From the IMG/VR virus record IMGVR_UViG_3300046674_000334, positions 1-49,599 of that record: a stretch of 49,599 bases of DNA. One strand, written 5' to 3'. This document shows, piece by piece, positions 38,496 to 48,392 of the stretch. A program made the position numbers and the translations under genes. A model generated the notes under the pieces. It saw nothing but the letters and a program-made list of their open reading frames with translations, did no database searches and was not told the origin of the DNA. The stretch comes from a virus. Positions within the stretch are counted from its first letter, which is position 1; each line of letters opens with the position of its first letter.

Positions 38496-38509
38496 CCGCA
38501 CACAACAAC

Positions 38510-38532
38510 GCCCCGCGGCGACACCGCGGGGC
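38510..38532. terminator. Hairpin between convergent genes
   Basis: GCCCCGCGG/CCGCGGGGC with loop CGACA lies between the + gene ending at 38495 and the - gene ending at 38553. It can serve both strands; no T-run. Confidence 0.65.
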
Positions 38533-38552
38533 AGAGGGGAGGGGGCGTGACG

Positions 38553-38783
38553 TCAGTCGGACTTCGCGGCGGGCTCGGACCACGGACCAGCCGGCGGGCG
38601 GACGGGCAGCTTGGCGCCAGGTCGCCGCAGGTACCAGCGGATGAACTCCCGAAGGACGCGAGCACGGGGGCTGCGGCCCTCGGGGTGTTGCGCCCGGGTG
38701 GCGGACTCGAACGGCAACCACTCGTCGTCGGGCGCGCGGAACTTCCGCTGGGCGTCGTAGCTGGCTTCGGTCTCGGACGTCAT
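38553..38783 (-). CDS. Ribbon-helix-helix-like regulator (putative)
   Basis: A 76-residue leftward protein: FRAPDDEWLPFESATRAQHP, then a helix pair RSPRARVLREFIRWYLRRPG and a Pro-rich end. The short strand, two helices and the LREFIRWYLR text fit small RHH DNA-binding proteins of actinobacteria. It is divergent from the CoiA-like nuclease gene over a region with four GTGGCCAC palindromes, the first only 20 bases from its start. It is the natural candidate to bind them. Confidence 0.6.
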   Translation of the reverse strand: MTSETEASYDAQRKFRAPDDEWLPFESATRAQHPEGRSPRARVLREFIRWYLRRPGAKLPVRPPAGPWSEPAAKSD

Positions 38784-38932
38784 GTCCGGAGGGTATCCGG
38801 TCGTGGCCACAGGCGGCAAGACGCATCGCCACGCTTTGTGGCCACAACTCTCTCTACGAACACGCTTGCTTTGTGGCCACAAAGACCGCTAGGTTTGTGG
38901 CCACAAGAGTTCCAGTACGAGAGGAGTAGTTC
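38784..38932. promoter_or_regulatory. Operator array of four GTGGCCAC palindromes
   Basis: Copies at 38803-38810, 38838-38845, 38873-38880 and 38897-38904. The last three extend to TTGTGGCCACAA, and the third to the 16-base palindrome CTTTGTGGCCACAAAG (38869-38884). Centre spacings are 35, 35 and 24 bases. They fill the whole gap between the divergent regulator (-) and nuclease (+) genes and so probably control both. Confidence 0.75.
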
Positions 38933-40024
38933 GTGACGAACGACAAGCTCTGGCACAGCGAGCTCGGTGATCTCGACATCACCAAGGCCGACCTGGGTCG
39001 GCCCGAGCTGCCTGAGCTGTGGGAGCTCCTTCTCTCCGACCGTCGCACCCCGATCTCTCGGCGCCAGCTGCAGTGCGGCGGCATCTGCCGCACGCTCGGC
39101 TACGTCGAATGGATGCACGTCTACGAGCGCCAGGGTCTGCGCGTTGCCGCGCACGAAGCCAAGACCGCCGAGCGGCGCCACGCCTCCAACGAAAGCCCCG
39201 AGCACCAGGCGTACAAGGAGCGCACGATCCGCGTCGCCACCGAGGCAGGGCACCGAGCCGAGGCGGAAGTGCGCACCCCGGACGGCAAGGTCCGAAGCGA
39301 CGTCCTGATCTATGGCGCTACCGACATGCCGACCGGCTTCGAGGTCCAGCGCTCGTTCGAGCCCGAGGGCACCATTAGGCGCCGCAACAAAGCCTCGAGC
39401 GACCACGGCATCCTCGCGGCCTGGCACACCGACGACACGCAGATGTTCAACCGGAACGAAGTCGCCTGGACCCGAACCGACAACCACCTGCCCCCTCGAG
39501 CAATTCGAGACGGCGCACACCTCCAAGTCCGCGGCGGATACCGCCACCTGGACATGGAGAAGTGCGATGAGCGGCGCGCCCGCCCCTGCCTGACCAAGAA
39601 GACCGGCAAGTGCGGCAAGTGGCACCCGGTCTCCTCGCCGCGGCAGATCTCCTACGACGACTTCGTGCGCGGCGTAGCCGCCGGCGAGGTCGTCCAGGCC
39701 GGAGTCAAAGAGTTCCGGACGACTTTCCACTTCTGGACCAACGCCCTCGAGCTCGAGCGCTACGAGGACACCATCGGCCGCTCCGTCCGCCCTTCCGGCC
39801 CTGCCCCGCGCAAGCCGGCCACCGGCTCCTCGGACCGTGACCCAACGTGTCGGGCGCGACCGCGCATCGAGATCAATCACGGACCTTGCTTCGACTGGAG
39901 CGACCGATCCCACTGGTCGCTCTTCGACCAGCCGTGTCGCCATTGCGGCCGTCTCACGCGCCTGCGCGACGACGCCGGTCGCCCCTCGCACAAGACCTGC
40001 GCCGAAGCGCAGTTCAGTCGCTGA
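38933..40024 (+). CDS. CoiA-like PD-(D/E)xK nuclease with C-terminal zinc motif
   Basis: A 363-residue protein. The centre resembles competence protein CoiA-like nucleases: a conserved helix SPEHQAYKERTIRVA (88-102), AEAEVRTPDGKVRSDVLIYG with D123, then TGFEVQRSFEP with E137 and Q139, and ILAAWHTDD. These could form the active site (D...ExQ). The C-terminus carries CFDW ... PCRHCGRL ... C, a zinc-binding unit. It would cut or process DNA. GTG after GAGGAG; expression probably depends on the palindrome array upstream. Confidence 0.7.
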   Translation: MTNDKLWHSELGDLDITKADLGRPELPELWELLLSDRRTPISRRQLQCGGICRTLGYVEWMHVYERQGLRVAAHEAKTAERRHASNESPEHQAYKERTIRVATEAGHRAEAEVRTPDGKVRSDVLIYGATDMPTGFEVQRSFEPEGTIRRRNKASSDHGILAAWHTDDTQMFNRNEVAWTRTDNHLPPRAIRDGAHLQVRGGYRHLDMEKCDERRARPCLTKKTGKCGKWHPVSSPRQISYDDFVRGVAAGEVVQAGVKEFRTTFHFWTNALELERYEDTIGRSVRPSGPAPRKPATGSSDRDPTCRARPRIEINHGPCFDWSDRSHWSLFDQPCRHCGRLTRLRDDAGRPSHKTCAEAQFSR

Positions 40025-40059: not shown

Positions 40060-41133
40060 ATGGCTCGTGGCCACGGCCGGATCCTCACCAGCATTTGGGA
40101 GGACGCCGACTTCCTCGCGCTCGACGAGAGGGAACAGCGCCTCTACCTGTTCCTCATCTCGCAGCCGAACCTCAACCACGCCGGCCTGCTCGACCTGACC
40201 CTCCGCCGGTGGGCGCGCAAGTCCCGCGGTCTCACCGTGGCCGAGCTGGAGAAGCGCATCGGCACGCTGGAGGAGACCCGCTTCGTCGTCGTCGATGACG
40301 ACACGGAGGAGCTCCTCATCCGGTCGTTCGTCCGCAACGACGGTGTCTGGCGCATGCCGAAGGTCATGGGCGCCATGGTGTCCGGCGCCCTGGAGATCTC
40401 CTCGAAGAGGCTCCAGCAGGCGCTCCTCGACGAGATGGCCCGCATCCCGCTGGATGACCTGAGCGACGACCCGGCGAAGCTCCGAACCGGCGGTGAGGGC
40501 CCCTCGATCCGGCAGCAGGTTCGGGACCACATCGAGACCCTTCGCCGGGCCTTCGGCACCCCCACGCCCGACCCGTCGGGAAGGGGTTCCGTAACCCCCT
40601 CCGATACCCCTTCGGGAACCCCCTCCGATACCCCTGCCGAACGGGGTCCGAAAGCCTCTACGCGTGCGCACGCAGGCCCGCACGTGCGCGCGGCCCCTGC
40701 CCCTGCCCCTACCCCTGCCCCTGACCCCAGCCCCGTACAAGAGGTGGGGGGCGTGCCTGGCGATCAAAGCGAAGCGGGGTCGGCGATCGAGGTCTCACGG
40801 CCTGTCGGCCTCGCACCGATCGACGTTGATGGCTTCTCGATCACCGACACGATGCGCCGCTGGGTGGCCGCGACCTACCCCGGCTTCGACATCGAGCACG
40901 CCACCGCTCAGTTCGTCAGCCACTACCGATCCACCGGCGCTCGCCGCAAGTCCTGGCCCGACGCCTGGCAGAAGTGGATCCGCGACGACGCGAAGAAGGC
41001 CGCCGACCGCCAGCAGCGGTTCGCCAGCAACGTCGTCCAGCTCCCCTCCGGCCAGACCCTCACCGGCACCGACGCCACCGTCGCCGGCTGGGCCGCCCTG
41101 GCCGCCGACCTCGACACGGAGGACTCCGCATGA
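40060..41133 (+). CDS. Replication initiator / DNA-binding protein with embedded iterons
   Basis: A 357-residue protein. The N-terminal domain (1-115: RILTSIWEDADFLALDEREQ, then AGLLDLTLRRWARKS) is a winged helix like phage replication initiators. A low-complexity linker (about 168-245) contains TPSDTPSGTPSDTP and Ala-Pro repeats. The C-terminal part (ATAQFVSHYRSTGARRKSWP, DAWQKWIRDDAKK) is DnaD/DnaT-like. DNA of the linker holds 24-base repeats, as in lambda O. It probably opens the phage origin. The next gene overlaps and may encode the loader. Confidence 0.72.
   Translation: MARGHGRILTSIWEDADFLALDEREQRLYLFLISQPNLNHAGLLDLTLRRWARKSRGLTVAELEKRIGTLEETRFVVVDDDTEELLIRSFVRNDGVWRMPKVMGAMVSGALEISSKRLQQALLDEMARIPLDDLSDDPAKLRTGGEGPSIRQQVRDHIETLRRAFGTPTPDPSGRGSVTPSDTPSGTPSDTPAERGPKASTRAHAGPHVRAAPAPAPTPAPDPSPVQEVGGVPGDQSEAGSAIEVSRPVGLAPIDVDGFSITDTMRRWVAATYPGFDIEHATAQFVSHYRSTGARRKSWPDAWQKWIRDDAKKAADRQQRFASNVVQLPSGQTLTGTDATVAGWAALAADLDTEDSA
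40593..40635 (+). repeat. Iteron-like repeats within the initiator gene (putative origin)
   Basis: AACCCCCTCCGATACCCCT occurs exactly at 40593-40611 and 40617-40635, a period of 24 bases; an imperfect AAGGGGTT...AACCCCC inverted pair precedes it (from 40581). About 60 bases downstream is a run of TGCCCC hexamers (40693-40730). Iterons within the linker-coding part of the initiator gene are the plan of the lambda origin. Confidence 0.6.
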
Positions 41134-47352: not shown

Positions 47353-47760
47353 TCAGTGCGGCAGAACCTCATCGAGGTAGGCCTGCACCGGCTCGAACAG
47401 GCCGTAGGGCACGTACTCGCTGATCGACGCATGGGCGACCCAGGCCACCGCGTCCAGCTCTTCGGCGTCGGCGACGTGCGCTTCGCCGGACAGGGCCTCG
47501 CAGGCGGTGTAGCTCATGAGACGGCTCGTCTTCGGGTGAACGCGCTCACCGAGCAGGCGGATTGCCTTCACCGTGAGGCCCGTCTCCTCCTCGGTCTCGC
47601 GCACGGCCGCATCCTCGGCGCTCTCGCCGGCCTCGATCGCGCCCGCGGGGAACTGCCACATCAGCTCGCCCTCCTTCACGCGGCGCCGCACCATCAGCAC
47701 CTGCCCGCCCTGGACGATGATCGCGGCAGAGATGCCGGGCTTGGTCTCGGTGTCGCTCAT
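47353..47760 (-). CDS. NUDIX hydrolase
   Basis: A 135-residue enzyme with a complete NUDIX box, G40, E46, R54, E55, E58, E59, G61 (AGAIEAGESAED followed by AAVRETEEETGL). It would hydrolyse a nucleoside diphosphate linked to another group, such as a dNTP-type or ADP-type compound, with Mg or Mn. ATG 47760 follows GGAGG; its start overlaps the stop of the upstream XRE-NUDIX gene (ATGA), so both are one leftward operon. Confidence 0.92.
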   Translation of the reverse strand: MSDTETKPGISAAIIVQGGQVLMVRRRVKEGELMWQFPAGAIEAGESAEDAAVRETEEETGLTVKAIRLLGERVHPKTSRLMSYTACEALSGEAHVADAEELDAVAWVAHASISEYVPYGLFEPVQAYLDEVLPH

Positions 47761-48392
47761 GCTGCCTCCAAGGCATTCAAGACGGGCGGATATATGCGGT
47801 CGGCGGGAATGAAGCGGGTGAGGCTGCTGCGGGGGACCCAAGCGACGTCCAGATTCTCGACGGAGTCCAGGTTCGCGGCCTCGCCAGCCAGGTAGGTGCA
47901 AAGCACGTAAGACGCCAACACGCCTGTCTGCGGGTGGACTCGGGAGCCGAGCTGCTTGTCGACTGCGCAGTGCACACCGGTCTCGGCGTGAGTCTCTTGG
48001 ATCGCGACGGACTCGACGCTGCCGCCCGGCTTGACCATCCCGGCCGGGAACTGCCAGGACAGGGCGGCGTCCCCACGGCGGCATACGAGCAGGACGTCAT
48101 CGGCGCGGGTCACGACGGCGATGGCGACACGAAGGGCCTGCGCCTGGACACGCTCCTCGGGCGGGCGGGACAGGAGGCTGAACCTGCGCTGCACCATCTC
48201 ACCCGCCTTCTCGTAGATCGTGTCCAGTGCCGCCTGCATCTCGACACGGGGCACGATGTCGGGCGTTGCGTGCCAGCCGGCCACCGTGCGCGGAGATGCG
48301 CCGATCCGATTCGCGAACGCCTCATTCGACATCCGAAGGGCCTCCTGCAACACGCAGGCAAGCCGGCCCGTCCACTGATCGACGACGTCCAC
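47757..48392 (-). CDS. XRE HTH-NUDIX fusion protein (likely sensor-regulator)
   Basis: A 211-residue protein. Residues 5-50 form an XRE-type HTH (LQEALRMSNEAFANRIGASP, RTVAGW) and about 88-205 a NUDIX domain. The box is degenerate: G118 is kept, but the usual Glu is G124, and REUxEE reads Q132-E-T-H-A-E137. It may bind rather than cut its ligand and so regulate. GTG 48392 after GAGGGG is preferred to an ATG at 48452, which would lie inside the TGCA repeats. Transcribed with the active NUDIX gene. Confidence 0.82.
   Translation of the reverse strand: MDVVDQWTGRLACVLQEALRMSNEAFANRIGASPRTVAGWHATPDIVPRVEMQAALDTIYEKAGEMVQRRFSLLSRPPEERVQAQALRVAIAVVTRADDVLLVCRRGDAALSWQFPAGMVKPGGSVESVAIQETHAETGVHCAVDKQLGSRVHPQTGVLASYVLCTYLAGEAANLDSVENLDVAWVPRSSLTRFIPADRIYPPVLNALEAA

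Follow-up and report, generated by a model that had tools for sequence, protein, structure and literature searches.

The 76-aa protein encoded on the minus strand of an actinobacterial phage genome is very likely an Arc-like RHH autorepressor that gates, through four palindromes, an operon encoding a nuclease and a replication initiation protein (Rep). Comparative support for this reading comes from the palindrome array, the promoter geometry, protein-operator co-variation and partner swapping, while three steps are inferred by us: that the protein binds its sites, that it represses and does not activate, and when during infection the repression is relieved.

Genomic Context and Predicted Features

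The analyzed DNA (49,599 nucleotides; hereafter the window) is a single IMG/VR viral record, IMGVR_UViG_3300046674_000334. The record is a temperate actinobacterial phage of the Streptomyces type, as it encodes an SPP1-type portal, a tyrosine integrase, a sliding-clamp-like protein, a YqaJ exonuclease and RecT. A few small genes 3' of RecT are followed by a hairpin terminator, the 76-aa regulator gene, a gap of 149 bases, the nuclease gene and the Rep gene. As stated in a preliminary description of this DNA, the 76-aa ORF (38783-38553, minus strand) and the 363-aa ORF (38933-40024, plus strand) are divergent. Elsewhere in the window (47353-48392, minus strand), an HTH-NUDIX gene precedes another NUDIX-like gene, for which PADLOC gives a PDC-S07 match (E 1.2e-17). 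The features discussed below are:

38509..38533, minus strand: hairpin terminator (z -2.8 on the minus strand), separating the upstream early operon from the convergent regulator gene
38553..38783, minus strand: putative Arc-like RHH regulator, 76 aa, ATG start, with a conserved R-x-[FVMIL]-R strand and a WYLRRPGAKLPxRP tail
38790..38795, minus strand: regulator promoter -10, TACCCT, 6 nt 5' of the ATG
38800..38813: predicted operator 1, CGTGGCCACA core, in the -35/-10 spacer of the regulator promoter; position -23, kept across the family
38814..38819, minus strand: regulator promoter -35, TTGCCG, a sequence reading; the 18-nt spacer contains operator 1
38835..38848: predicted operator 2, TTTGTGGCCACAAC; position -58
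38866..38871, plus strand: divergent nuclease/rep promoter -35, TTGCTT, a sequence reading; CTTG is about 90% conserved at the same offset in 42 relatives
38870..38883: predicted operator 3, CTTTGTGGCCACAAAG palindrome, in the spacer of the divergent promoter; position -93
38890..38895, plus strand: divergent promoter -10, TAGGTT, a sequence reading; 18-nt spacer
38894..38907: predicted operator 4, TTTGTGGCCACAAG, over the predicted transcription start of the nuclease operon; position -117
38933..40024, plus strand: predicted CoiA-like PD-(D/E)XK nuclease, 363 aa, bearing zinc-type cysteines and, separately, a zinc domain at the C terminus; opens the controlled operon
40060..41133, plus strand: Rep (phrog_3171, E 1.6e-49), second gene of the controlled operon

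Palindromes and Promoters in the Intergenic Region

The four GTGGCCAC sites previously noticed in the 149-base gap are present at 38803, 38838, 38873 and 38897, with the reported start-to-start spacing of 35, 35 and 24 bases, and three of the four copies do extend to TTGTGGCCACAA. As GTGGCCAC is expected by chance about 1.85 times in the whole window and about 0.004 times in 105 bp, the presence of four copies within 105 bp is not a chance arrangement. A fifth GTGGCCAC (40067-40074) was considered as an additional operator and rejected, since it lies within the chance expectation and forms a palindrome of only 10 bp; its position among the initial codons of Rep (MARGH) is probably fortuitous.

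No canonical sigma-70 site was returned by a consensus promoter scan, and the -35 and -10 assignments, TTGCTT-18-TAGGTT rightward and TTGCCG-18-TACCCT leftward, are based on conservation across relatives of the regulator. Because the leftward -10 lies only 6 nt 5' of the regulator ATG, the regulator mRNA is predicted to be leaderless, and the same prediction follows for 56 relatives, in which TANNNT ends 6 or 7 nt 5' of the ATG. When the relatives are aligned on their sites, the divergent promoter appears as CTTG (about 90%) just 5' of the spacer operator, followed by a TAGNTT-like -10 and then a second operator. A longer reading of the regulator, of 109 aa from a TTG start, is disfavored by the homologous ATG that relatives use and by the -10 box 6 nt 5' of that ATG.

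An Uncatalogued Family of Arc-Like Regulators

The RHH label that had been given to the 76-aa protein holds well for its family but weakly for the window protein by itself: PHROG 6506 (phrog_6506, 'Arc-like repressor') is matched by 27 of 29 family members with a best E of 1.2e-9, the window protein itself giving E values of 0.008-0.018. Pfam RHH_1 (PF01402) yielded no score above its gathering threshold (2 of 19 members matched, best E 0.1), so the family is not filed there. In the AlphaFold monomer (mean pLDDT 74), the chain is extended to residue 18 and forms helices at residues 19-32 and 40-53; no paired strand is visible in the monomer. Foldseek gives no RHH match to this model, an outcome expected of a fold that needs its dimer partner.

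Relatives were gathered from 53 viral loci, 23 Streptomyces/Actinomadura loci and 29 of 393 surveyed Streptomyces genomes, yielding 93 distinct proteins. Four family members used as queries found no relatives among INPHARED phages, where only weak Burkholderia matches (E 0.3) were seen, and PLSDB contained no match to the window regulator and one weak Streptomyces plasmid match to a query of another class. No description of the family or its operators was found in the literature, with coverage of subscription journals being thin and novelty unproven. RHH autorepressors themselves are already known; what is most likely new is an uncatalogued regulator family with a natural, predictive recognition code.

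The Conserved Unit

The arrays recur when the palindromes are sought in other genomes. Palindromes at the canonical positions precede 73 of the 91 relatives with an inferred repeat, and five more after a shift of the start codon; there are three to four per array, at fixed positions of -23, -58, -81/-93 and about -116. An array score of at least 14 was reached by 50 of 93 regulator genes vs. 8 of 838 control genes. The nuclease does not travel with this arrangement. No family regulator occurs near the nuclease relatives in 24 loci (20 Streptomyces genomes and four viral contigs), and none of the regulator relatives has the nuclease as divergent neighbor, so that the search for the gene pair in other genomes, which had been put forward as a way to refute the preliminary description, goes against it. 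The nearest approach is a nuclease relative of 28% identity 3.3 kb from the regulator (L045/L080). L163 keeps the gene order of the window (YqaJ, RecT, ..., nuclease, Rep) with neither the regulator nor the palindromes, and in L160 a different minus-strand RHH gene sits between nuclease and Rep.

Partners are exchanged even between close relatives. Among regulators more than 90% identical, homologous first genes lie opposite in only 7 of 15 pairs; 41 of the 92 first genes facing regulators are singletons. Partner families that do recur, among them DUF6011 (8 loci) and WYL-domain proteins (5), face regulators of more than one class. On these sequence comparisons, the conserved unit is the regulator with its operators, not the regulator with the nuclease, and the latter is probably an ordinary cargo of the replication module and a chance partner of the regulator. 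Other rep operons led by the regulator family begin with a gene that resembles a GIY-YIG (L083) or, by eye, an HNH (L125) nuclease in place of the CoiA-like one, and nucleases seem to be drawn to the position ahead of Rep.

The Nuclease

The 363-aa protein is predicted, from its core fold and catalytic residues, to be a nuclease of the PD-(D/E)XK superfamily, to which CoiA-like proteins have been assigned (PMC1913061). The proposed D123 and E137xQ139 motif is conserved in its family (D123 and E137 in 18/18, Q139 in 17/18), along with H91 and zinc-type C48, C211, C219, C227 and H231. The protein also has a separate C-terminal zinc domain. Pfam CoiA_nuc (PF06054) scores below its gathering threshold (19.0 vs. 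20.3 bits), relatives giving 18.7-19.4 bits or no match. The model has an alpha-beta-beta-beta-alpha-beta core (helix 89-104, strands 108-114, 121-127 and 134-138, helix 145-157 and strand 161-166), and its structural matches are mostly PD-(D/E)XK enzymes (Can2, Vsr, Hjc, McrC and restriction enzymes), with VIA Z values of up to 8.8, a level that is middling by the tool's own warning. Nuclease relatives occur in 74 of 296 Streptomyces genomes (25%); in viral contigs they are found in replication modules, beside Rep or DnaB-like genes. This placement among replication genes favors a role in replication or recombination. The C-terminal zinc part (residues about 303-360; SHWS...PCRHCG...HKTCAE) also stands alone in many Streptomyces proteins, and the stand-alone domain is found near other members of the regulator family as well (L005, L066, L067 and L072).

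Protein-Operator Co-Variation

Residues are numbered as in the window protein, where two conserved arginines, R13 and R16, bracket residue 14. Its identity tracks the inner bases of the operator half-site. K or R at this position is found with ..TGTGG (GTGG; inner triplet TGG in 18/19), Q with ..TGTAG (GTAG; TAG in 12/12), S with ..TGTAC (GTAC; TAC in 15/16) and G with ..TGGTT (GGTT; GTT in 5/5), while V14 is found with ..TGCAT (GCAT; CAT in 12/12) when combined with N12 and with ..TGGC(T/A) when combined with Q12 (GC(T/A) in 6/6). The outer bases track the N-terminal arm: YD or YE accompanies (T/C)T, with T at base 2 in 21/21, and KT(P/Q) accompanies GG in 24/25. All four combinations of the natural 2 × 2 set, YD with K/R, YD with Q, KT with R and KT with Q, exist, each with the expected half-site. 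The co-variation of residue 14 with the inner triplet and of the arm with the flanks is the pattern expected if alternating strand residues read a palindrome.

Of the pairs at least 80% identical over residues 17-63, class and triplet are both shared in 84 and both different in 28, with no discordant pair (112/112, K and R being grouped). A tree-based independent-pairs test on the same residues agrees in direction, at about 3 to 0 on supported branches, a number too small for significance. The code is incomplete, since proteins with proline at residue 14 can have either GTAC or GTAG operators and L314 is the single case of M. Within these bounds, the operator palindrome appears to be predictable from strand residue 14 and the N-terminal arm.

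We also searched 2.9 million viral contigs blindly, with operator pairs alone, and then identified the adjacent gene. The regulator family lay beside 4 of 4 TTGTGGCCACAA arrays (RKFR type), 22 of 22 GTGGTTNACCAC arrays (all with G at residue 14; 17 new proteins), 29 of 30 GTGTACGTACAC arrays (S or P at residue 14, one M) and 11 of 14 GTGCATATGCAC arrays (all with N and V or A). Arrays of TGTAGCTACA were less specific, with 18 of 120 beside the family, nearly all Q or P. The other 102 lie elsewhere, mostly in low-GC contigs, where many start another small gene, MAKSKPIGVRFDL..., directly after the array. In low-GC viral contigs (L170-L187 and others), TGTAGCTACA arrays 21-23 bp apart stand directly 5' of a different small gene (MAKSKPIGVRFDLYKL..., RHH-like by eye), and some directly precede a PAPS-reductase-like gene instead; these arrays apparently represent a parallel autoregulated system in unrelated phages.

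The same strand-to-operator rules are followed by a second, distant RHH family of actinobacterial elements, which has no WYLRRPG tail. Its member L276 (RQIR) has GTAGCTAC operators, with three TGTAGCTACA, and L321, L328 and L331 (KTP arm, NRVIR/NRAIR) have GGTGCATATGCACC operators; the member in L160 (L160:6047-6241, NRVVR) has one GCATATGC core upstream.

Operators are not always confined to one region. A 99-kb record (IMGVR_UViG_2934965791_000001; G419, locus L223) carries 19 operator pairs at 71632-88608, as 19 copies of a promoter cassette, CTTGC-operator-TTAGT-operator. The 12 cassettes that were read (10.7 kb) each lie just 5' of a gene, and a family regulator of predicted Q type, L336, is encoded nearby. 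The pairs thus apparently form a regulon under one RHH repressor, with one promoter per gene.

Proposed Mechanism and Alternative Explanations

We propose that each operator, with half-sites TTTGTGG and CCACAAA, would be bound by a dimer of the 76-aa protein whose two-stranded ribbon (residues about 12-16, QRKFR) would enter the major groove, and that the protein would prefer TTTGTGGCCACAAA over TTTGTAGCTACAAA. Occupancy of operator 1 would block the regulator's own leaderless promoter and autorepression would keep its level low, while occupancy of operator 3 in the divergent spacer and operator 4 at the start site would block the promoter of the nuclease operon. Because operators lie in both promoters, with operator 2 between them, binding would be expected to shut both cooperatively. 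Repression would thereby gate the nuclease and Rep-initiator operon, which the terminator sets apart from the preceding early genes.

In the preliminary description, tight control of the nuclease was seen as fitting a module for superinfection exclusion, host-DNA degradation or DNA uptake; on such a view, regulator and nuclease would form a dedicated pair, with the regulator keeping the nuclease silent until needed. Conserved active-site residues and operators in both divergent promoters would suit such a module; however, the pair does not recur, the viral nuclease relatives belong to replication modules beside Rep or DnaB-like genes, and PADLOC gives no defense match for either protein, so we regard it as very unlikely. 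A type II toxin-antitoxin system, in which the RHH protein would be the antitoxin and the nuclease the toxin, is hardly credible: RHH antitoxins such as RelB do autoregulate through palindromes (PMC2812701), but here the genes are divergent without co-transcription, regulator relatives face dozens of unrelated partners, and the nuclease is common without the regulator (25% of 296 vs. 7% of 393 Streptomyces genomes). RHH-bound operator arrays serve as centromeres in some plasmids, and the array might then be a partition site bound by a ParG/omega-like RHH protein. We find this the least credible reading, as no ParA-like gene was recognized beside the array in the window, the sites coincide with promoter elements, and G419 apparently uses its 19 operator pairs as separate promoters.

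Two further possibilities accept binding or co-variation and interpret it differently. Activation of the divergent promoter from the spacer operator, in a MerR-like manner, would fit the location of operator 3 between -35 and -10, and both activation and repression have been described for the RHH protein AmrZ (PMC3325190). The spacer is nevertheless of normal length (18 nt), operator 4 covers the predicted start site and operator 1 is placed likewise in the regulator's own promoter, all of which makes activation very improbable. Co-variation could also reflect shared descent of adjacent DNA instead of recognition, given that regulator and operators are inherited together and that such short proteins yield a poorly resolved tree. 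Against this stand the discordance-free split even among near-identical proteins, the factorial combination of arm and strand and the obedience of a distant RHH family to the same rules, and we give shared descent very little weight. An RHH autorepressor acting on both promoters is the reading that we prefer, although the monomer model without paired strands, the Foldseek and Pfam results, the small tree-based test, the incomplete code and the TGTAGCTACA arrays outside the family count against it.

Implications and Comparison with Known Systems

Few proteins that read DNA are as small as RHH repressors, but a general residue-to-base rule has been hard to derive, the known members being too different. 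Here, about a hundred close relatives share one promoter architecture, and their reading residues vary in step with their operators, giving at least six classes in a factorial manner (arm × strand), which makes the recognition code directly testable in one natural family. For Streptomyces, the family also supplies small repressors that are presumably orthogonal, each with its matched promoter, and it suggests a way in which actinobacterial phages and other mobile elements avoid mixing up their switches. It is conceivable, though we hold it to be rather unlikely, that operator specificities have diversified because they define immunity or compatibility groups, in which a resident regulator shuts only incoming operons of the matching class and actinobacterial mobile elements escape by changing one strand residue along with their operators. 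Hints in this direction are that homologous partner operons, e.g., those led by DUF6011, are found with regulators from four or more operator classes, and that G419 has 19 operator pairs. Intact regulators also reside together in five cases, one of them within a single viral contig, and no such pair is of one class; this is uninformative on incompatibility because an all-different outcome is expected by chance in about 37% of cases.

Like the Arc repressor of phage P22 and PHROG 6506, the window family is small, of RHH type and phage-borne, with palindromic operators within the promoter, and regulator residues 12, 14 and 16 align by eye with the DNA-reading strand positions of Arc. It differs from Arc in its own tail, WYLRRPGAKLPxRP, in its predicted leaderless mRNA, in three to four operators across two divergent promoters with varied partner operons, and in operator sequences that shift systematically between relatives. 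CopG-type plasmid copy-number repressors are likewise small RHH autorepressors ahead of rep, and the window operon contains a Rep initiator; however, the window regulator is divergent from rep and not co-transcribed with it, and most relatives face no rep gene. The nuclease resembles the CoiA nuclease domain (PF06054) in its sub-threshold Pfam match, the PD-(D/E)XK-like core of its model and the D/ExQ motif, but has extra N-terminal and zinc-binding parts and a phage replication context, without a link to competence. Finally, G419, with one family regulator and 19 paired operators, resembles the stoperator-type regulons of temperate phages, whereas the window and most relatives keep their operators in one intergenic region.
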